Part shown: positions 7,707-53,505 of the stretch, piece by piece
How positions within the stretch are numbered: the stretch's first letter is position 1
Layout: the number at the start of each line of letters is the position of its first letter
The notes under the pieces: model-generated
The model's database searches: none
Told to the model about the DNA's origin: nothing
Seen by the model: only the letters and a program-made list of their open reading frames with translations
NCBI RefSeq assembly: GCF_011044495.1
Contig: NZ_CP049143.1
Coordinates: 868,001 to 932,000, forward strand
Direction of reading: 5' to 3'
Origin: Roseimicrobium sp. ORNL1
Lineage (GTDB): Bacteria; Verrucomicrobiota; Verrucomicrobiia; Verrucomicrobiales; Verrucomicrobiaceae
Length of the DNA: 64,000 bases
Translations under genes and position numbers: made by a program

Positions 7707-7720
7707 GGGTGGAAAAGAAA

Positions 7721-7880
7721 GGAGCGCGGACACTCTTGTCCGCTATCCCTGATGTTCCATCTCCTTTCATCTGGCAGGCAGGGCCGTATTCCACCAGCAG
7801 CTTCTGACGAGCGGCGTCACTGTTGTCGCATGAAAGACTTCGCTGCGCCACAGAACGGCGGACAAGAGTGTCCACGCTCC
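7721..7880. repeat. REPIN-like inverted pair, TGTCC family, copy 1
   Basis: A 160-bp element between the convergent thiolase and MFS genes. Each end is GGAGC followed by a 7-bp hairpin (GYGGACA, loop CTCT, TGTCCGC), and the two ends are inverted to each other. The interior is colinear with the copy at 42949-43107 (shared TCTGGCAGGCA, GGCGTCA and ACAGAACGGCGGAC). No ORF is present. GGAG-type head plus hairpin in inverted pairs is the known layout of REP/REPIN elements mobilised in trans by RAYT enzymes. Confidence 0.85.
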
Positions 7881-7924
7881 TTTGGATGCTCGCTCCGCTC
7901 GTCTCGTATTTGGCGTATTCTCGC

Positions 7925-13713: not shown

Positions 13714-14032
13714 CCAGGGAGTGGGGACATTTCTGTCCCCATTCGCGACGCGTAAATGCATCATTCAGGTCGCACGTCCCACGAAGGAGGCGAGCGGTTC
13801 GCAGGGAGCGGCACTAGCCTTAGTGCCGGTGGTGGGCAAAGTGGGATGCGGAGCCTTTTCTTTCGAAGCTGTAAAGACGCTTCCAAGCTGCTCGCGTGGC
13901 AACGCTGCATATGACGGCACTAGGCTAGTGCCGCTCCCTGCGGGACGGTCGCTCCGTGCACGCGCATGGGTGATTTTAGTCTTGGGGATGTAGCACGCCT
14001 CGAAAGGGGACAGGAATGTCCCCTCTCCTTGG
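13714..14032. repeat. Outer REPIN-like pair (GGGGACA family) split by a nested element
   Basis: Arms at 13714-13753 and 13993-14032 are inverted copies of about 40 bp with good identity. Each contains a GGAG-type head and a hairpin GGGGACA, 4-base loop, TGTCCCC (13723-13740 and 14006-14023). A second element of another family (13801-13941) lies between them. The 385-bp gap between the convergent trmD and prenyl-synthase-like genes is almost wholly repeat. Confidence 0.75.
13801..13941. repeat. Nested REPIN-like pair (GGCACTA family)
   Basis: Inverted arms at 13801-13828 and 13915-13941: each is GCAGGGAGC followed by a 7-bp hairpin GGCACTA, short GCC(T) loop, TAGTGCC. The arms also show weaker similarity further out (GGAG.CGA.CG blocks). 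Sits inside the GGGGACA pair, as if inserted later. Confidence 0.8.
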
Positions 14033-33799: not shown

Positions 33800-36700
33800 A
33801 TGACCTGCTTTCGCTGGCTGTCCTCTTCTATTTTCACACTCAAGCTTCGTTCCGTAATCGCCCTCGGGCTGGGACTTGTCCCGCTCTATTCGATTTCCGC
33901 CGCGCCCAAGGAACTGGAGGGCGTCCGTGCTCCCGCCCAGACCGAATGTCCGAGTCCGGAGGAGGCGCGCAAGAAGATGACCGTGCCGGATGGGTATGAG
34001 GTGCGTTGCTTTGCGCACGAACCTATGGTGCAGAATCCTGTGGCGATGACGTGGGATCACCGCGGCCGCCTCTGGGTGGTGGAGCTCTATGAGTATCCGG
34101 AAGGCACACCGCTTCCCGTGGACAAGCGACCCTTCGGCCAGCCCGCCAATGACAGCAACTACCACCCCGTGCCGGACATCTGCAAAGGCGAGCAGAAGGA
34201 GGCAGATGGCAAGATTCCCCGCGACCGTGTGCTCATCCTGGAAGACACGGACAACGACGGCGTGGCGGACAAGCGCACGGTTTTCCTGCAGGGGCTGGAC
34301 ATGGCCTGCGGCATCATCTGCGGTGATGGTGGCGTGTACATCGGCCAGCAGCCACACCTGCTCCATTTCAAGGACACCGATGGTGATGACAAGCCGGACG
34401 AATGGCGCGTGGTGCTCACAGGGTTCGGTCGCGAGGATACGCATGAATTGATCAACAGCTTCTCCTGGGGCCCGGACGGCTGGCTCTACATGACACACGG
34501 TGTTTTCACGAACTCGAAAGTGCGCCGTCCCGGCGAGCCCGCGGAGAAGGGCTTCAAGTTCGATGCCGGCATCGGTCGCTGCAAACCGCTTACGGGTGAG
34601 TTCGAGGTCTTCGCCGATGGCACCAGCAATCCGTGGGGTTGTGACTTCGATCCACGAGGGAACTTCTTCGTGAGCGCCTGTGTGATTGATCACCTCTTCC
34701 ACATGGCACCGGGTGGCATCTATGTGCGGCAGGGTGGCGCACCGGAGAATCCGTATGCGTATGAGCTGCTACCGAGCATCGTGAAGCACAAGCACTTCCG
34801 TGCGGCCTATGCCGGTATCCAGATCTATCAGGGTGGGGTATACCCGAAGGACACGCATGGGCACTTGTTCATCGGGAACATCCATGACAATGCGATCCAT
34901 GAGGAAGTAGTGACCCCGGTGGGCGCCTCCTTCAAAGCAGAGCCCGTGCGCGACTTCCTCCGCGCCAATGACGGCTGGTTCCGCCCCGTGAGCACGCAGA
35001 CCGGACCGGATGGCAACCTGTGGATCATGGACTGGTGCGACAAGTATCCTTGCTACCAGAATGCCAAGGCAAACCCGGAAGGGGTGGACCGCGCACGTGG
35101 TCGTGTGTGGCGCGTGGTGACGAAGGGGGCCAAGCCGGAGACGCGCGAAAAGCAGGACATGGATCTCCAGAAGCTCGGGACGGCGGACCTGGTGAAGCTA
35201 TTGGAACATTCCAATAGCTGGATGCGTCGCCTCGCCCGGCGCATGCTCGCTGAGCGCAAGGATGAGCAGGCCAAGGGGGCACTGGTGACCATGGCGAAAT
35301 CATCGGACGCACGTCTGCGATTTGATGCCCTGTGCACGCTGCATCAGTGCGGACTGCTGGATGCTGCACTGCTGGATGAGACGGTGAAGGATGCTGACGC
35401 CAGCATCCGCGCGTGGGTCGCTCGACTGAGCGGCGAGCGATTCCGCCTCGCCAGCCAGCATGTGGCCGCCGTGGCGGATGGCGATGTGCTCAAGAGTACC
35501 AAGGCGGAGCATAAGGCCTTCGAAGGCATGCTGCCCGACATGGATCGTGTGGAACTGCTCGGAAAGGATCCTGACATGGCGGTGCGCTTCGCCGTGACCG
35601 TGGCTTTGCGCATGGCGGCATCTGGCGCCCTCACGGCGAACCGTCCCAATGCTCACGACGGAGCGCACTGGAGGCCTCTGGTCCGGCCTTGGAATCGACT
35701 GGGTGACGTGCTTGAGACCAGTGCGAACAGCTCAGACGGCCTCCTGAAGCATGGCATCTGGATGGTTCTTGAGCGTGGGCTGGCAGAAGATTCGGAAGAG
35801 GCCATGGACGGTATCTTCAGCCTTGCAAAGAGCACCCAGCCGCTGAGTCACGTGCTTGCCTACAAAGCGATGCGGCGGCTCTGCGATACCCGCGATGCGG
35901 AGCAACTCGATGTCGCGGTCAAGTTCTGCGAATCCATCCAAAGTGAGGCCGTCCTCCTGGCACACGCCTTGGATGGTCTCGTGAAAGGGCAGGAATCGGG
36001 GGTCATCAAACCCAAGAAGGACATTACCAAACAACTCGCCGTGTGGCGAAAGAACGATAACGCGGATGTGCGCAAACAGGCCGAGCAGCTTGCGGTGCTG
36101 TGGGGTGATGTGGAAGCCACCAACGCGCTCATCGCCTCTGCCGTGAATGAGGCAACGCCGACGCCGGAGCGTTTGCAGGCCATCAAGACGCTGCGTCGCG
36201 TGAAGACGGATGCGGTGCGTGCCGGGTTGGCCAAGTTGTTGGGTGAAAAGCTCCCTGCCGCTGTGAGCGTGGAAGGCATTCGTGCGGCGGCGGACCTGGG
36301 TGGCGATATGTTCCCTCCCGTGCTGGTTTCGCTGGCGGCGTCCAAGGACTTCTCCGTCCGTCTTGCCGCGCTGGAGGCGCTCTCGGGGCGTGTCGATTGG
36401 GCGAAACTGATGCTCACCGCGGTTGAAGAGAAGAAGGTCAGCAGTGCTGAGTTCCCCGTTCCCGTGCGTCGTGCGCTGGCCACGAATGGTGACAAGGCGG
36501 TGCGTGACCAGGCCTTCCGTGTGCTCGGTGCCTGGAAGGAATCATCCGCGGATGTGAAAACCTTGATTGCTGACAAGAAGAAAATGGCGCTCGAAGGCAC
36601 ACCGGATCTGGAGCAGGGCAAGCTCATGTTCCAGGCCACCTGTGCCATCTGCCATCCCTTCCACGGGGGTGGCCAGAAGGTGGGGCCAGATCTCATCGGC

Positions 36701-37513
36701 AGCGGTCGCAGCAATCTGGATGCGATCCTCGCCAACGTGATCGATCCCAATCAGATCATCGGCAACGGCTATGAGAACATGATTGCCACCACAAAGGATG
36801 GCCGCACCCTCGCTGGCCGTCTGGTGGAAGACACGCCGGCTCACATCAAGCTCCTCGCTGCCGGTGGTGCCGAGCAAATCGTGCCGCGTGATCAGCTGGT
36901 GAAGCTGGAGAACACCCACCAGAGCCTCATGCCTGCGGGTTTCGGTCAGTTGCCGGATGAGCAGTTCCGCAATCTCATCTGGTACGTGCTCGCTCCGCCG
37001 GAAGAAGGTCCGCTCACGAAGGAAAAGAAGGAGATGCTGAGCAAGGGCGTGGAAGGTGGCGAAGCTGCGAAGAAGCCCGTTGCGTCGTGGTATAAGCCGG
37101 ACTGGGAAAGCGTGTCCTTGTGGAATCCCCAGTGGAAGGTCAGTGCTCCTGATTTCGAACGCACGCCTGTGAAACTCTCCGATTTCCACGGCCGCAAGAA
37201 TGTGCTGCTCATGCATCCCTTCGCCAAGGACAAGCCCACGGTGCTGGAGCGGACGATGAAGCTGGAGGCCGGCAAGCCACATGCGCTGACGGCCACCGTC
37301 GCGGCACATGATCAAGGCGACTGGGAACTGCGCGTGAAGGTGAACGGCAAGGAAGTGAAGAAGCAGGTCATCGATCACGACGGCGAACGCTGGAAGACCG
37401 TGACGGCGGACTTGAGCGAATTCGCCGGCCAGGAAGTCACGATCCAACTCGAAGGCGCCGCCACCGGCTGGGCCTGGGAATTCGGCTACTGGGCTGAGGT
37501 GCGGGTGGAGTAA
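33800..37513 (+). CDS. PVC-type beta-propeller/HEAT/cytochrome c protein
   Basis: A large exported protein of 1237 residues, of the class typical of Planctomycetes and Verrucomicrobia. After an N-terminal hydrophobic signal (about 14-34) comes a six-blade, glucose-dehydrogenase-like propeller (about 60-440: RCFAHEPMVQNPVAMTWD, GPDGWLYMTHG, GPDGNLWIMDWCDKYPC), a long HEAT-repeat part (about 450-920), a cytochrome c domain with heme motif CAICH (C948, C951, H952) and an added C-terminal beta domain (about 1100-1237). Probably an extracytoplasmic dehydrogenase passing electrons to its own heme; substrate unknown. Transcribed alone. Confidence 0.93.
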   Translation: MTCFRWLSSSIFTLKLRSVIALGLGLVPLYSISAAPKELEGVRAPAQTECPSPEEARKKMTVPDGYEVRCFAHEPMVQNPVAMTWDHRGRLWVVELYEYPEGTPLPVDKRPFGQPANDSNYHPVPDICKGEQKEADGKIPRDRVLILEDTDNDGVADKRTVFLQGLDMACGIICGDGGVYIGQQPHLLHFKDTDGDDKPDEWRVVLTGFGREDTHELINSFSWGPDGWLYMTHGVFTNSKVRRPGEPAEKGFKFDAGIGRCKPLTGEFEVFADGTSNPWGCDFDPRGNFFVSACVIDHLFHMAPGGIYVRQGGAPENPYAYELLPSIVKHKHFRAAYAGIQIYQGGVYPKDTHGHLFIGNIHDNAIHEEVVTPVGASFKAEPVRDFLRANDGWFRPVSTQTGPDGNLWIMDWCDKYPCYQNAKANPEGVDRARGRVWRVVTKGAKPETREKQDMDLQKLGTADLVKLLEHSNSWMRRLARRMLAERKDEQAKGALVTMAKSSDARLRFDALCTLHQCGLLDAALLDETVKDADASIRAWVARLSGERFRLASQHVAAVADGDVLKSTKAEHKAFEGMLPDMDRVELLGKDPDMAVRFAVTVALRMAASGALTANRPNAHDGAHWRPLVRPWNRLGDVLETSANSSDGLLKHGIWMVLERGLAEDSEEAMDGIFSLAKSTQPLSHVLAYKAMRRLCDTRDAEQLDVAVKFCESIQSEAVLLAHALDGLVKGQESGVIKPKKDITKQLAVWRKNDNADVRKQAEQLAVLWGDVEATNALIASAVNEATPTPERLQAIKTLRRVKTDAVRAGLAKLLGEKLPAAVSVEGIRAAADLGGDMFPPVLVSLAASKDFSVRLAALEALSGRVDWAKLMLTAVEEKKVSSAEFPVPVRRALATNGDKAVRDQAFRVLGAWKESSADVKTLIADKKKMALEGTPDLEQGKLMFQATCAICHPFHGGGQKVGPDLIGSGRSNLDAILANVIDPNQIIGNGYENMIATTKDGRTLAGRLVEDTPAHIKLLAAGGAEQIVPRDQLVKLENTHQSLMPAGFGQLPDEQFRNLIWYVLAPPEEGPLTKEKKEMLSKGVEGGEAAKKPVASWYKPDWESVSLWNPQWKVSAPDFERTPVKLSDFHGRKNVLLMHPFAKDKPTVLERTMKLEAGKPHALTATVAAHDQGDWELRVKVNGKEVKKQVIDHDGERWKTVTADLSEFAGQEVTIQLEGAATGWAWEFGYWAEVRVE

Positions 37514-37524
37514 GTCGAAAGGTT

Positions 37525-38129
37525 AAACGCAAAGCAGCGAAGCAGCAAAGAGCTACGGATTGAGGGGCTGCAGCTCGCAGTCACGGTTCTCTGAATTTCT
37601 TTGCTGCTTTCGCTGCTTTGCGTTTTCTCCCAAATGAGTTGTCCGATTCCGTGGGATATCGTAAACGGCCACGCCATGGAGGAACTGAGTGATCATGAGA
37701 ACCGTGTGTCGAGGGCAGTGCTGGATGCTGCCTTCGCCGTACACAACCATTTGGGGCCGGGTCTCCTTGAAAGTGTATATGAGATTTGCCTGATGCACGA
37801 GTTGCAGAAGGCAGGACACCAAGTTCGGAGGCAGATTGCTGTTCCGGTGATTTACGACCGCGTCAAGATGGAGGCTGGCTTCCGACTGGACCTGCTGGTG
37901 GATGAAGCGGTCATTGTGGAGTGCAAAGCGGTTGAGGAACTGCATCCGATCACAGCCTCACAGGTGTTCACCTATCTCAAATTAACCGGAAAGCGGCTGG
38001 GTCTGGTCATCAATTTTAATGTCAAATTGCTTCAGAAAGGCATCAAGCGCGTGATTTGCACTGCCAATTCTCAAGCCCGAGCCCCGATCCCACCCGCATA
38101 AATCCTTTGCTGCTTCGCTGCTTTGCGTT
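37525..38129 (+). mobile_element. Candidate mobile unit: 25-bp inverted repeats around a GxxExxY gene
   Basis: The arm at 37526-37550 and the arm at 38105-38129 are exact reverse complements over 25 bp (core CGCAAAGCAGCGAAGC). A third arm at 37599-37625, inverted to the first with one inserted base, lies just before the gene, so the left end alone is also a hairpin with a 48-bp loop. The only gene inside is the GxxExxY protein (37676-38101), whose stop is 3 bp before the right arm. A gene-less hairpin with the same arms occurs at 47500-47566. No target duplication was recognised. Confidence 0.6.
37676..38101 (+). CDS. GxxExxY protein, PD-(D/E)XK nuclease superfamily
   Basis: A 141-residue protein. 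The family motif GLLESVY gives G29, E32, Y35. Further on are D72 in RLDLLVD and E82-x-K84 in VIVECKAVEEL, which fit the D...ExK arrangement of PD-(D/E)XK nucleases. The C-terminal LKLTGKRLGLVINFN is typical of the family. The family is numerous in some genomes and its role is unknown. The start MEELSDHEN matches usual family length; ATG 37634 is an alternative. It is enclosed by a perfect 25-bp inverted repeat, which may mean it is part of a mobile unit. Confidence 0.9.
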   Translation: MEELSDHENRVSRAVLDAAFAVHNHLGPGLLESVYEICLMHELQKAGHQVRRQIAVPVIYDRVKMEAGFRLDLLVDEAVIVECKAVEELHPITASQVFTYLKLTGKRLGLVINFNVKLLQKGIKRVICTANSQARAPIPPA

Positions 38130-38144
38130 CAAATCCTCCGCGCG

Positions 38145-39068
38145 ATGCTCGTGTTCATCTTGCGACGATTCTTCAGCAGCCTGGTGGTGCTGTTTTGTGT
38201 CGTGTCGTTGACGTTCCTGTTGGTGCGGCTGCAGAAGGGTGGGCCGTTTGACCGGGAGAAGGAGCCGCCGCCGCATGTGAAGGCGGAGTTGGAGAAGAAA
38301 TACCGGCTGGATGGCAGCGTCTGGGACCAGCTTGGAGCCTATCTGTGGACCTTCGTGGTGCACCGGGATCCGGGGATTTCCTTGAAATACCGGGATCTGA
38401 CGGTGACGGAGATCCTCTCGCAGAAGCTGCCGAATTCGCTCACGCTGGGTGCATGTGCCTTCCTCATCGCTTCGATCGGCGGGGTGGCGTTTGGATTCAT
38501 TGCGGCGCTGAAACGGGACTCGTGGGTGGATGTGTCGGCGATGTTCTTCGCGCTGGGGGCGATCAGCATTCCCACGTTTATCACGGGGCCGTTGTTGATT
38601 GCCATGTTCGGCTTGTGGCTGGGGTGGTTGCCCATAGGGGGATTCGAAACTTGGCGGCATCTGATTTTACCCGCCATCTGCCTGGGCCTGCCGTTCCTGG
38701 CGTATGTGGCGCGACTCACGCGGAACAGCCTGCTGGACGTGATGTCGCAGAACTACATGCGTACGGCGAAGGCAAAAGGACTGGATGACAGCACCGCACT
38801 GATGCGGCACGCGCTGAAGGTGGCCATCCTGCCAGTGGTCACTTACCTCGGTCCGATGGCGGCCTATGTGTTGACCGGCTCCTTCGTGGTGGAGAGCGTT
38901 TTCAACATCTCGGGGGTGGGCATGGTGTTTGTGAATGGCATTCAGAACAGTGACGTGTTCCTCCTATGCAGCGCGGTGATCGTGTATTCCGCGCTGCTGG
39001 TGTTCTTCAATTTCGCGGTGGATGTGACCTACACGTTCCTGGACAAGCGCATCAAACTCCATGGCTGA
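38145..39068 (+). CDS. Oligopeptide-type ABC transporter permease (OppB/DppB family)
   Basis: Inner-membrane permease of 307 residues with about six helices. Landmarks: N-terminal FILRRFFSSLVVLFCVVSLTFLLVRL helix (short landmark LRRFFSSLVVLF), LPNSLTLGACAFLIA, the EAA-like cytoplasmic loop YMRTAKAKGLDDSTALMRHAL (landmark RTAKAKGLD, about 205) and GSFVVESVFNISGVG. Its 3' end overlaps the second permease by 8 bp. No ATPase or binding-protein gene adjoins, so the rest of the importer must be encoded elsewhere. Confidence 0.93.
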   Translation: MLVFILRRFFSSLVVLFCVVSLTFLLVRLQKGGPFDREKEPPPHVKAELEKKYRLDGSVWDQLGAYLWTFVVHRDPGISLKYRDLTVTEILSQKLPNSLTLGACAFLIASIGGVAFGFIAALKRDSWVDVSAMFFALGAISIPTFITGPLLIAMFGLWLGWLPIGGFETWRHLILPAICLGLPFLAYVARLTRNSLLDVMSQNYMRTAKAKGLDDSTALMRHALKVAILPVVTYLGPMAAYVLTGSFVVESVFNISGVGMVFVNGIQNSDVFLLCSAVIVYSALLVFFNFAVDVTYTFLDKRIKLHG

Positions 39069-40485: not shown

Positions 40486-40514
40486 GTTAACGCCGTTTTT
40501 TCAAATCGTTGCGG

Positions 40515-40611
40515 CCCTGGGAGCGCTGGCCTCTGGCCGGCGGAATTGCGTTGCCATCCCTTGCAGAGTACCAGCAGCGAATACGCCGGCCAGAGGCCAG
40601 CGCTCCCAGGG
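40515..40611. repeat. REPIN-like inverted pair (GCTGGCC family), copy 1
   Basis: Arms at 40515-40542 and 40584-40611 are inverted copies. Each is CCCTGGGAGC followed by GCTGGCC, loop TCT, GGCCGGC. The 41-bp spacer differs from that of the copy at 53420-53499 except for GAATACG beside the right arm. Lies in the 246-bp gap between the PilZ-like and NupG-like genes. Confidence 0.9.
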
Positions 40612-40731
40612 CTTCGTCCGGCACTTGGCAGCCTTGTAGTTCTGTGCCGCATCCAGACGGTTTCGTGATGTCCTGGGCCTTCTGAGCCCGGCTGGTGAAT
40701 GGAGACGGACGCAGTGGCGTATTCGTGCTCC

Positions 40732-42854: not shown

Positions 42855-42948
42855 GTGGGGCCTTGCTGCCCTGCATTATACCGAGAGGAATTGAAAGCGG
42901 GTCTTGGTGAGAGCCTTATGAGCAAGGTGAAGTGCAGGGCATTTTAAG

Positions 42949-43107
42949 GGAGCGTGGACACTCTTGTCCGCCACCCCTGACACACCACCCTCTTCCGTCT
43001 GGCAGGCAAGGTCACACTCCATCAGCTGCTCCAGAGGCGTCAGCAGTAGCTTCCGCACGCTGGAGGTCGCTACGCTACAGAACGGCGGACAAGAGTGTCC
43101 ACGCTCC
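42949..43107. repeat. REPIN-like inverted pair, TGTCC family, copy 2
   Basis: A 159-bp element in the 312-bp gap between convergent GDSL and ROK genes. Ends are GGAGC plus the hairpin GTGGACA, loop CTCT, TGTCCGC, in inverted orientation. The whole interior is homologous and in the same orientation as 7721-7880. The flanking parts of the gap (42855-42948 and 43108-43166) hold no gene. Confidence 0.88.
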
Positions 43108-43166
43108 TTTGCTCAGTCCCTCGCTCCCTGCACAAAGAGCCGTTTCAACTGTCGATTACCCTATTC

Positions 43167-47208: not shown

Positions 47209-47499
47209 ATGAAAGTCCGTCTCCACTCCCAGCAACATGAGTGGCGATCCCGTGATGAGGAGAACCAGGTGGTGATTATTCGTGCCGAGTGGGACTCCAT
47301 CAAATGGAACTTCACCTACACCACGAAGAAGGATCCTGAGTGGCACGATCTGCCCACGCCACTGCTGCACCACTTCGAAGAGCTGCGCGAGATCCTCTTC
47401 AACAAGTACCAGCGCCGCCGCCTGCCCTGGCGCTTCGTTGAGGAGTTGGATGCGCACATCGTGAAGATGCGCCATGAGGAAGGTGTCTCAGAGGATTGA
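47209..47499 (+). CDS. Small conserved-looking protein of unknown function
   Basis: A 96-residue hydrophilic protein, no family recognised. It is rich in aromatic and charged residues (IKWNFTYTTKKDPEWHDLP, HHFEELREILFNKYQRRRLPWRF) and has no signal or membrane segment. Good coding features: clean start at ATG 47209, spacing of 89 bp after the ABC-F gene on the same strand, and a stop that abuts a hairpin repeat. Could be a small cytoplasmic adaptor. Confidence 0.65.
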   Translation: MKVRLHSQQHEWRSRDEENQVVIIRAEWDSIKWNFTYTTKKDPEWHDLPTPLLHHFEELREILFNKYQRRRLPWRFVEELDAHIVKMRHEEGVSED

Positions 47500-47566
47500 A
47501 ACGCAAAGCAACTAAACAGCAAAGGATACAACTCAATTCCTCTTTGTTGCTTCGCTGCTTTGCGTT
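47500..47566. repeat. Gene-less hairpin of the GxxExxY-flanking repeat family
   Basis: Arms at 47500-47524 and 47542-47566 are inverted repeats with about 21 of 25 bases pairing (core AACGCAAAGCA), separated by only 17 bp. The right arm differs at one base from the right arm at 38105-38129. The hairpin fills the gap between two convergent genes almost exactly, starting at the stop of one and ending 4 bp before the stop of the other, so it may also serve as a transcription terminator. Confidence 0.75.
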
Positions 47567-47570
47567 GAGC

Positions 47571-48938
47571 TCACTTCTCCAGCGCCGCCTGAACCGCAGA
47601 GGTGAGGCTGCCTACGCCGTACTGCAGGCTGCCTTCTGCTTCCGGTTTGTAGAGGGGTGAGTGCAGGCTGGGGAGCGGCTTGCCGCCATTCTCGGCTTCT
47701 GTGGCGCGCGCCGGGGGCACGGTGCCCAGCCAGAACATGCAAATCGGAATTTTGTCCTCCGTCATGCCGTAGCGGCTGAAGTCTTCACCACCCATGGTGG
47801 GGCGGCGGTTCTTCACGGCGGCATCGCCATAGCGTTCCTTCAGCGCCGCGGCGATACGCTTGGTCAGCGCCGGATCATTCTGTACCACGGGAGTGAAGCG
47901 CTCGGCTTCTTTAATCTCCGGCAGGTGTGTGTCCGGCAGGCCGGCAGCGCGTGCCATCCCTTCTGAGATGCGACGGATGGCGGCCAGTGTTTTGCCGCGA
48001 GTTTCGGCGTTGAAGGAGCGAATCGTGAGCTGCAGCTTCACTTCATCTGGGATGATGTTGTGCTTCGTGCCGCCGTGGATGCTGCCCACGGTCACGACGA
48101 CGGCTTCGCGCGGATCGATTTCACGGCTGTCGATCATCTGGAGCGCCACGATGATCTGTGCGGCGAGCACCACGGGATCCTTCGTGGTGTGCGGAGCACT
48201 GCCGTGACCACCGATGCCACGCACGGTGATGTCCACGCTATCCACATTCGCCGTGGCAGGTCCTTCGATGAGGCCGAAGGTGCCGACCGCCATGTCGCTG
48301 TTGCAGTGAAGGGCCACACAGGCATCCGGCTTGGGGAAGCGTGTGTAGAGTCCATCCTCCAGCATGGGAGCGGAGCCTCCGCCTTTTTCCTCGGCGGGCT
48401 GGCCGATGAAGACGAGCGTGCCGCTCCATTTCTTTTTGTTCTCCGCAAACCAGCGTGCCGTGCCGGTCCAACAGGCCATGTGCATGTCATGTCCGCAGGC
48501 ATGCATCACGGGCACGTCGGAGCCATCGGCGTCCTTCACGCGCACCTTGCTGGCGAAGGGCAGGCCGGTCAGTTCGCGCACGGGCAGCGCGTCCATGTCG
48601 GTGCGCACCAGCACCGTGCGGCCTTCGCCATTCTTCAGCACGCCGACAACGCCCCAGCCTCCGACTTTCTCGGTGACAGTGAAGCCGATTTCGCGCAGTT
48701 CCTTCGCCAGTCGCTGGCTGGTCTTCTCCTCGAGGTAGGAAAGCTCGGGCGCGGCATGCAGTTCTTCATACAGTTTCCGGAGTCGTGCCTGCTCTTCATC
48801 TGTGAGTTTTGACGAAAGGACAATCTGGGCCACGCCTGGCTTCGAATGCGCGAACGGCAGGACGGCGAATCCCGCCACACAAAGTGGCAGGAGGAGGCGC
48901 GGTGGGAGTATGCGCCGGAGGGACTGGGTGAGATGCAT
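47571..48938 (-). CDS. Exported M20-family amidohydrolase
   Basis: Metal-dependent amidase/carboxypeptidase of about 455 residues, of the IAA-amino-acid hydrolase/hippuricase type (M20D). The start MHLTQSLRR at 48938 gives a signal peptide (hydrophobic 14-30). Metal ligands are recognisable in MHACGHDMHMA (about 150), QPAEEKGGG (about 186, catalytic glutamate pair) and PTMGGEDFSRYG near the C-terminus. The dimerisation domain starts at VDITVRGIGGHGSAPH. Substrates are usually N-acyl amino acids; the exported form suggests peptide or acyl-amino-acid scavenging. Confidence 0.9.
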   Translation of the reverse strand: MHLTQSLRRILPPRLLLPLCVAGFAVLPFAHSKPGVAQIVLSSKLTDEEQARLRKLYEELHAAPELSYLEEKTSQRLAKELREIGFTVTEKVGGWGVVGVLKNGEGRTVLVRTDMDALPVRELTGLPFASKVRVKDADGSDVPVMHACGHDMHMACWTGTARWFAENKKKWSGTLVFIGQPAEEKGGGSAPMLEDGLYTRFPKPDACVALHCNSDMAVGTFGLIEGPATANVDSVDITVRGIGGHGSAPHTTKDPVVLAAQIIVALQMIDSREIDPREAVVVTVGSIHGGTKHNIIPDEVKLQLTIRSFNAETRGKTLAAIRRISEGMARAAGLPDTHLPEIKEAERFTPVVQNDPALTKRIAAALKERYGDAAVKNRRPTMGGEDFSRYGMTEDKIPICMFWLGTVPPARATEAENGGKPLPSLHSPLYKPEAEGSLQYGVGSLTSAVQAALEK

Positions 48939-49164
48939 GGCAGGTCTGGAGAAGACCGACCCGGGGGGGGCTGGGCCAGCGAGTTGTGCTGAAGGCATGC
49001 TGGCGCGAATCCCCACGCTTGTGAAGAAGAAAAGCCCAACGCGCAGAAATACGTCACTTCCGTCGCAGGCGTGTGCGAGGGCAAAAAAATCCATCCGTCC
49101 TTCCACGAATGTACCCAAGGTTTCGCGGAAGGACGGATGCGCGCAATAGGCCGCCGGGGGTAGG

Positions 49165-49338
49165 CTAAGTGGCCCGTTTGTTTCCGGTGAACTGGCCGAA
49201 AATCCAACAGACGAAGAAGATGATGGCTGCAATCCAGAGCAGGTGGAGAAGCACACTGGTGATGGCGAGGGCGACTTTCAACACAAGCCAAAGGACCATG
49301 AGTGCCAGTGCCAGCCAGATGAATGTGGACGAGTGCAT
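49165..49338 (-). CDS. Small two-helix membrane protein
   Basis: A 57-residue reading frame from ATG 49338 to TAG 49165. The translation is nearly all membrane helix: FIWLALALMVLWLVLKVALA and VLLHLLWIAAIIFFVCWIFG, ending with GNKRAT. The form is like the short lmo0937/DUF5670-type membrane proteins. Too short for firm assignment, but its composition and its place before another small membrane gene support coding. Confidence 0.55.
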   Translation of the reverse strand: MHSSTFIWLALALMVLWLVLKVALAITSVLLHLLWIAAIIFFVCWIFGQFTGNKRAT

Positions 49339-53365: not shown

Positions 53366-53419
53366 GGATGATACTGAGGGATACGTTACCACATCTGGCG
53401 AGGGACTACTTCATGCAGG

Positions 53420-53499
53420 CCCTGGGAGCGCTGGCCTCTGGCCGGCGTCGCTCCGGTAAGGTGCGTGAATACGCCGGCCGGAGGCCAGCGCTCCCAGGG
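53420..53499. repeat. REPIN-like inverted pair (GCTGGCC family), copy 2, inside the kdp operon
   Basis: Arms at 53420-53447 and 53472-53499, each CCCTGGGAGC plus the GCTGGCC, TCT, GGCCGGC hairpin (one stem base varies in the right arm). The spacer is 24 bp. It lies between the KdpC-like gene (stop 53506) and kdpD (start 53365), so the polycistronic RNA would carry a strong stem-loop between the pump genes and the sensor genes. Confidence 0.9.
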
Positions 53500-53505
53500 C
53501 TGCAA

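Follow-up and report, generated by a model that had tools for sequence, protein, structure and literature searches.

GxxExxY genes between inverted arrays of a short repeat unit, with gene-less hairpin relatives, in Roseimicrobium sp. ORNL1 and other bacteria

The present study concerns a small GxxExxY gene in a 64,000-nucleotide stretch of the Roseimicrobium sp. ORNL1 genome (7.96 Mb, one contig), the whole of which is called the window here. Many genes of this family stand between inverted arms built from a repeated unit of 8-9 bp, not only in this genome but across its phylum and in other phyla; the same arm type also forms hairpins that hold no gene, and single intergenic sites are occupied differently in related genomes. 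We consider it probable, with moderate confidence, that these loci are compact hairpin elements of one gene and two unit-array arms, in which a PD-(D/E)XK nuclease would recognize its own arm type and the gene-less hairpins would be non-autonomous copies, in a way resembling REPIN-RAYT systems. Binding, cutting and mobilization in trans by the GxxExxY protein are suggested here by sequence comparison and by analogy.

The window element and its gene

The gene (37634..38101, + strand, 155 aa, with an alternative start at 37676) belongs to the PD-(D/E)XK nuclease superfamily and, scanned from the alternative start, matched PF13366 (5.5e-40, 136.8 bits, curated cut-off 22) and TIGR04256 GxxExxY (1.3e-41, 141.7 bits, cut-off 35). 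Its left arm at 37526..37550 (+), with the three units CGCAAAG-C-AGCGAAG-C-AGCAAAG, is the exact reverse complement of the right arm at 38105..38129 (-), and the pair can be extended to 28 nt at 96%; by a composition-only estimate, 2.4e-7 exact 25-bp inverted pairs at most 1.5 kb apart are expected per 64 kb. The preliminary description had claimed this perfect 25-bp bracket, a gene stop 3 bp before the right arm and a third arm making the left end a hairpin, and all three claims held: the gene ends at 38101 and the arm starts at 38105, while 37525-37541 pairs exactly with 37609-37625, inside a third arm (37599..37625, -) that completes a hairpin with the left arm. This hairpin (37526-37625) is predicted to fold as a long one with a single bulged base in the arm, and the element in full has a strong predicted fold. 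The third-arm stretch also came up as an exact arm-pattern match in the genome-wide search (G000:C1:905599-905624). As a typical feature of such loci the third arm was rejected, a complete hairpin standing on at least one side in 13/111 testable GxxExxY loci and a complete flanking hairpin in 3/224 control stretches. The neighbours are a PVC-type heme-protein gene on the left (33800-37513) and an oligopeptide-permease-like gene on the right (38145-39068). Elsewhere in the window, an inverted repeat at 13714-14032 encloses another of different sequence at 13790-13952, and two more inverted-repeat families, probably REP-like, have two copies each (40514-40612 and 53419-53500; 7718-7883 and 42946-43110; GCCCTGGGAGCGCTGGCC and AAAGGAGCG.GGACACTCTTGTCC).

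To our knowledge, no role has been assigned to GxxExxY or to four-helix IVP proteins, both of which are common in bacteria. Residues E46, D86, E96, K98 and Q110 were invariant in 73 aligned GxxExxY sequences, E46 lying in the motif used for finding the sequences, whose columns are conserved by construction; 8 of 80 loci, in which the listed range reads a stop, were left out of this alignment. D86, E96 and K98 form the acidic-acidic-Lys motif of the PD-(D/E)XK superfamily and are conserved in the family of the window protein, with D replacing E96 in one copy of the sister species (L037). A structural model of the window protein (pLDDT 85) had a predicted restriction-endonuclease-like fold, and its best structure match was to SSO0001 (Z 8.8), which we take to be a Cas4, followed mostly by restriction-endonuclease-like folds at Z 5-7.5, a weak likeness; weak matches included a Cas4 protein (Z 5.7) and Holliday-junction resolvases (Z 5.2 to 6.5), and the best Foldseek E was 9.6e-3. 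No solved relative was convincing at the sequence level (best E 0.11). A role as an anti-phage defence gene was rejected, with 0 PADLOC families matched.

Brackets around GxxExxY genes and around other genes

Profile search found four PF13366 genes in this genome and six in the sister species, and an inverted-repeat bracket (score at least 17) was present at 10/10. These ten loci were mostly unlike in sequence, the exceptions being two orthologous pairs (L001/L035 and L004/L039), and two of the four genes of this genome have a positional orthologue in the sister species. Across phyla 47/75 testable loci were bracketed at the same score, or 44/75 with slightly different flank cuts, in a sample that is not random because it holds the best 80 of 582 loci confirmed among at least 589 matches to one peptide pattern (5/80 were too near a contig end). 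For other genomes of the phylum, each represented by its best match, the bracket was found at 23/28 testable loci, L202 scoring 17.5 and L203, cut by a contig end, being untestable. Random control stretches of the same geometry reached 17 in 0/972 cases for the cross-phyla set and 5/930 for the phylum set; arm pairs taken across loci did so in 15/558, since related arm types match each other. Scores below 17 at 33/113 testable GxxExxY loci count against the element reading, and at L209 iterated arms were missing at the score applied. At L252 (G085:C30:34536 and 35322) two GxxExxY genes are adjacent, the first of them being L209. In a blind control with 58 further small ORFs from those 80 loci, two reached 17 and one 16.5; the three were two PF05635 genes and another GxxExxY gene, one of each at 17 or above, and the only other control ORF at 15 or more was a piece of chorismate synthase (15.0).

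The preliminary description had allowed that the association would be chance if arms were absent around most GxxExxY genes and as frequent beside unrelated ones; when this was put to the test, arms were found at most of the GxxExxY genes tested and seldom at others. A chance bracket was rejected on the same-geometry controls, on the small-ORF control and on the 1.2-Mb ORF sample presented below. Carriage as phage cargo was rejected (a GxxExxY match in 0 of 50,697 phage records), as was carriage as plasmid cargo (6 of 72,556 plasmid records), the six plasmid loci comprising three with arms at 17 or more (L291, L292 and L293) and three without. A literature text search, with subscription journals mostly outside its reach, found neither the association of GxxExxY with such arms nor any of six arm 15-mers.

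An even 1.2-Mb sample of this genome, in which non-overlapping ORFs were taken longest first and no GxxExxY gene was present, had brackets at 17 or more around 6/382 small and 8/614 larger ORFs. The 14 were four Y1 transposases, four ordinary larger genes and six frames without a family. The one PF05635 gene of the sample was bracketed as well (29.0) but hidden by a longer opposite frame, and it was among the 8/2174 reaching 17 when every ATG ORF of 240-600 nt was counted, whether or not it overlapped another. The six family-less frames (L316:1487-2137, L301:13129-13527, L333:7701-8048, L346:13015-13302, L330:3087-3419 and L305:13021-13677) may be chance frames in gene-less hairpins, and the one in L330 has the arm type of GxxExxY locus L004. 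The ordinary larger genes (L342:11285-13984, L333:8320-10956, L301:9640-11904 and L304:17177-18433), with hairpin-family repeats inverted on both sides, comprise alanyl-tRNA synthetase, VWA-domain, PATR-repeat and esterase-like genes, and count slightly against the element reading. From this sample it follows that REP-type transposases of this genome share the anatomy of the GxxExxY loci and that few other genes do.

These counts also bear on the idea that the arms are short tandem repeats produced by polymerase slippage at hot spots near gene ends, with small genes lying between them by chance or through a shared intergenic preference. Heptanucleotide repeats are ascribed to polymerase slippage in one report (PMC4679880), and this genome is rich in hairpin families, with some ordinary genes bracketed by them. 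Slippage, however, yields direct repeats and not inverted arms around one gene, the bracketed ORFs were just 14/996 of those sampled, four of them Y1 genes, and there are two gene families with two periods (7 and 8-9). We regard this explanation as close to refuted and as very improbable.

Arm units, gene-less hairpins and occupancy of shared sites

Each arm repeats a unit of 8-9 bp, roughly CRCNRAGR, mostly three to four times. Identity at lag 8 in the left arms of 88 loci (score at least 15) was 0.43 vs 0.29 in shuffled arms and was lower at lags 9 and 10; element by element, the best lag was 8 in 49, 9 in 21, 10 in 8 and another in 10. Units within one element had the same letter at position 2 in 332/352 cases; between left and right arm units, position 2 agreed in 120/122 and position 5 in 122/122, and the degenerate position in 75/122 (45 expected). 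Such a pattern looks like a sequence read unit by unit and not like a stem kept for pairing, with the proviso that conserved positions may be favoured by the alignment. The gene takes up the space between the arms: in 26/45 strong cases its stop codon falls somewhere between 30 bp ahead of the right arm and 12 bp within it.

Heptanucleotide repeats are known from cyanobacterial tRNA introns. A second family, PF05635 (23S rRNA IVP), was found across the phylum between inverted arms whose unit is 7 bp (L150-L155 and L215-L243), with 21/35 loci bracketed at 17 or more and 28/35 at 15 or more, against 0 and 7 of 1122 controls. In this count L236 scores 21.5, and L156, the second half of the L154 gene, is left out of the 35; L157, below the PF05635 cut-off, had no bracket. 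Identity at lag 7 in these arms was 0.62 vs 0.33 shuffled, and the best lag was 7 in 22/27. At L154/L156 (G000:C1:2832732-2833024) the PF05635 gene is split in two frames and the arms are intact. For one member there are also sub-threshold matches to models of the DGR protein Avd. The 7-bp unit fits the heptamers published for the Coxiella 23S intervening sequence, which has heptamer repeats before its ORF and a stem of inverted repeats that RNase III cuts, and which is discussed as a possible former mobile element (PMC4990558).

It is conceivable from the same material that the element acts at the level of RNA, with arms that serve as stems for transcript processing, on the model of 23S intervening sequences, and a protein whose target is RNA or its own message, the hairpins having spread by other means. 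The occurrence of PF05635, the ORF of those intervening sequences, in the same kind of arms favours this, as do the RNase III-cut Coxiella stem with heptamers before the ORF (PMC4990558) and the strong predicted fold of the whole window element. Pairing alone, though, predicts agreement at all positions, whereas the degenerate position falls well behind positions 2 and 5, a weak argument given the possible alignment bias. On balance we find this reading unlikely.

Arm type was also compared with the protein. In 66 elements the unit letter was compared with that of the most similar protein and was the same in 53 at position 2 and in 61 at position 5. When the most similar protein was taken from another phylum, the letter was the same in 50/66 at position 2 (expected 37.6, P=0.0025) and in 50/66 at position 5 (expected 42.7, P=0.017), with labels shuffled within phylum. 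Judged from these sequences, arm type follows the GxxExxY protein, even between phyla. Six of the 66 proteins hold an X, where the listed range reads a stop, and two without a phylum were treated as one group; the tree of the 66 is poorly resolved and the result rests on the nearest-protein counts.

As the preliminary description had proposed, gene-less relatives of the element exist, one of them at 47500-47566 within the window. Arm matches exceed genes in number. The hairpin at 47500-47566 has 25-nt arms of the window element's type, 84% complementary (left 47500..47524, +; right 47542..47566, -), and lies between convergent ORFs (47209-47499, +, and 47571-49256, -), beginning right after the stop of the one at 47499 and ending 4 bp before the end of the other at 47571. 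Genome-wide the window arm type had 29 matches at no more than three mismatches and its reversed control none; 14/29 had an inverted partner inward (11 distinct hairpins, the window's own included) and 0 outward, and 9/14 of the paired matches enclose no open frame of 60 codons. A search for hidden genes in the longer gene-less hairpins gave five open frames of 72-142 codons, without a Pfam match. No near-identical gene-bearing copies were found inside this genome, which counts against the element reading. With the strict three-unit pattern the window's genome, where there are 4 GxxExxY genes, had 201 matches (26 with the pattern reversed) and 96 genomes of the phylum had 1014 (74 reversed), although such matches are not elements, because the pattern overlaps itself in long arrays. 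Of 12 hairpins of this genome that were tested, 5/12 (L018, L022, L024, L027 and L032) had in the loop an inner inverted repeat above every shuffle and 7/12 did not; these hairpins of different sequence are a possible result of insertion into hairpin loops.

As a mechanism we propose that the PD-(D/E)XK gene product reads its own kind of arm unit and that its probable substrate for cutting is the extruded hairpin or cruciform, with re-insertion possibly left to host repair or to the Y1 transposases found in these genomes. Hairpins of that type without a gene would be non-autonomous copies served in trans, so that a single gene or a few could suffice for the many arms of a genome. That the protein may cut or copy the arms, as the preliminary description suggested, is argued from the conserved PD-(D/E)XK residues together with the way in which arm type tracks the protein. 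The anatomy is that of REPIN-RAYT systems, with few genes among many hairpins, two of the four genes in orthologous positions and near absence from phages and plasmids, and on this ground we suggest that the nuclease cuts hairpins of its own unit type.

For the window element's own site and for the site in genus g12, which hairpin stands where in relatives was read by eye. The two neighbours of the window element were adjacent in five relatives: in the sister species another GxxExxY gene (46% identical) stands there between longer arms of its own; gene-less hairpins take the place in G002 and G012, built of another repeat, and in G018, of CACAGAG type; and the arms of G021 match loosely. G006 and G017 are uninformative because the left neighbour differs. 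A second site has a GxxExxY element in the sister species and a gene-less hairpin with related arms in this genome, and at a third the sister species holds unrelated sequence. In genus g12, one intergenic site was matched in 50/59 genomes, 30 of which were compared. It was empty (75-79 bp) in 11/30 and held heptamer arms of two types around a PF05635-like gene in 8/30, a gene-less CACAGAT hairpin in 1/30, gene-less heptamer hairpins in 2/30 and other or unresolved sequence in 8/30; the family was confirmed in five of the six PF05635-like copies searched and not found in the sixth, that of G036, which is maybe decayed. The comparison of relatives that the preliminary description had called for was thus borne out in that the same sites were gene-bearing, gene-less or empty, and not in regard to a target duplication, none of which was clear at two sites against the sister genome or at one site in 30 genomes, the flanks being so diverged that one could have been missed. 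No clean excision was seen at the same sites against the sister genome and in g12, which counts against the element reading.

Within the 96 phylum genomes the three-unit pattern was present in 32/46 with GxxExxY vs 3/50 without (P=2.7e-11, kinship not corrected). At family level the figures were 15/21 vs 2/6 (P=0.15, not significant), which counts against the element reading, as do the arms in the 3/50 genomes without the gene, one of them with 10 matches. PF05635 presence was associated with the pattern too (31/66 vs 4/30, P=0.0014), a point against a simple element reading. Y1 transposases were present in 32/32 genomes having both GxxExxY and arms, which leaves the autonomy of the unit, put forward in the preliminary description, a conjecture. 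A further alternative is that the hairpins are REP-like and moved by Y1 (RAYT, HUH) transposases, GxxExxY being a passenger or accessory gene caught between two of them. There were 17 Y1 matches in this genome and Y1 was present in 67/96 of the phylum sample; among genomes with GxxExxY, arms occurred in 32/40 with Y1 and 0/6 without (P=3e-4), which counts against the simple element reading, and four Y1/RAYT-type genes here, one just below family cut-offs, lie in inverted-repeat brackets (L334:13189-13806, L333:13210-13779, L319:9455-9910 and L316:6810-7724). Because 0/6 of the Y1-less GxxExxY genomes, four of the six being one family, have the pattern, Y1 may be needed too, or other arms may be used. 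Against the passenger explanation, genomes with Y1 had arms in 32/40 with GxxExxY but in just 2/27 without it, arm type tracks the GxxExxY protein across phyla, the four Y1 brackets are not of the CRCNRAGR unit type, and five Y1 loci of other genomes had no bracket at 17 (scores 8 to 13.5, with 13.5 and 13.0 at the two cut by contig ends). We think it quite unlikely.

Comparison with known systems

A wider proposal, which we offer tentatively and regard as rather doubtful in its entirety, is that each of two unrelated families has its own class of hairpin element with a fixed unit, which is 8-9 bp for GxxExxY and 7 bp for the IVP/Avd-like PF05635. Both would insert near gene ends and into older hairpin loops, leaving nested hairpins, and 23S intervening sequences would be 7-bp members that landed in rRNA loops; the proteins would read the unit, open the hairpin and mobilize gene-less copies in trans, and the elements would form a class of bacterial mobile DNA distinct from those of DDE, HUH, serine or tyrosine enzymes. 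Should GxxExxY and IVP proteins indeed be enzymes or partners of iterated hairpin elements, both would have a function open to testing, and an origin would be at hand for many so far unexplained hairpins between genes, in Verrucomicrobiota-type genomes as well as in other phyla; the source of 23S rRNA intervening sequences would become directly testable, and mobile DNA would have a new type of nuclease.

Insertion sequences and MITEs resemble the present element in terminal inverted repeats and gene-less derivatives, and differ in that the window element lacks a known transposase and that no target duplication was found at the sites compared, with their diverged flanks. Recombination-promoting nucleases of the Rpn/YhgA kind are PD-(D/E)XK proteins linked to DNA movement, but we know of no iterated arms with them, and the window gene matched no such family. 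The fdxN element excision controlling factor (2okf, presumably XisH), by its title a factor of programmed excision, was a weak fold match (Z 5.2), set apart by the low Z, by being missing among sequence matches to solved structures and by a different context.

The 23S rRNA intervening sequences likewise have one small ORF in an inverted-repeat stem, and for Coxiella heptamers are reported and a mobile origin is discussed (PMC4990558); in contrast, the window gene has no PF05635 match, its site is outside rRNA and its unit is 8-9 bp and not 7. In REPIN-RAYT systems, as described in PMC3116915, REP doublet hairpins go with REP-associated tyrosine transposases and the enzyme gene is close to its own repeats. 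The present system is like these in that a small number of enzyme genes goes with many hairpins that are dispersed outside genes and have inverted arms (14/29 arm matches, in 11 hairpins, paired inward and 0 outward), and in having a gene near its own repeats, and it is unlike them in an enzyme that is PD-(D/E)XK and not Y1 (HUH) and in arms that are arrays of 8-9-bp units. A cognate Y1 gene in or beside the repeats is absent at the window element, where there is only the PF13366/TIGR04256 gene, and Y1 genes lie elsewhere in the genome. The window element thus parts from REPIN-RAYT in its enzyme and from 23S intervening sequences in its ORF and its place, and these two are its nearest known kinds.
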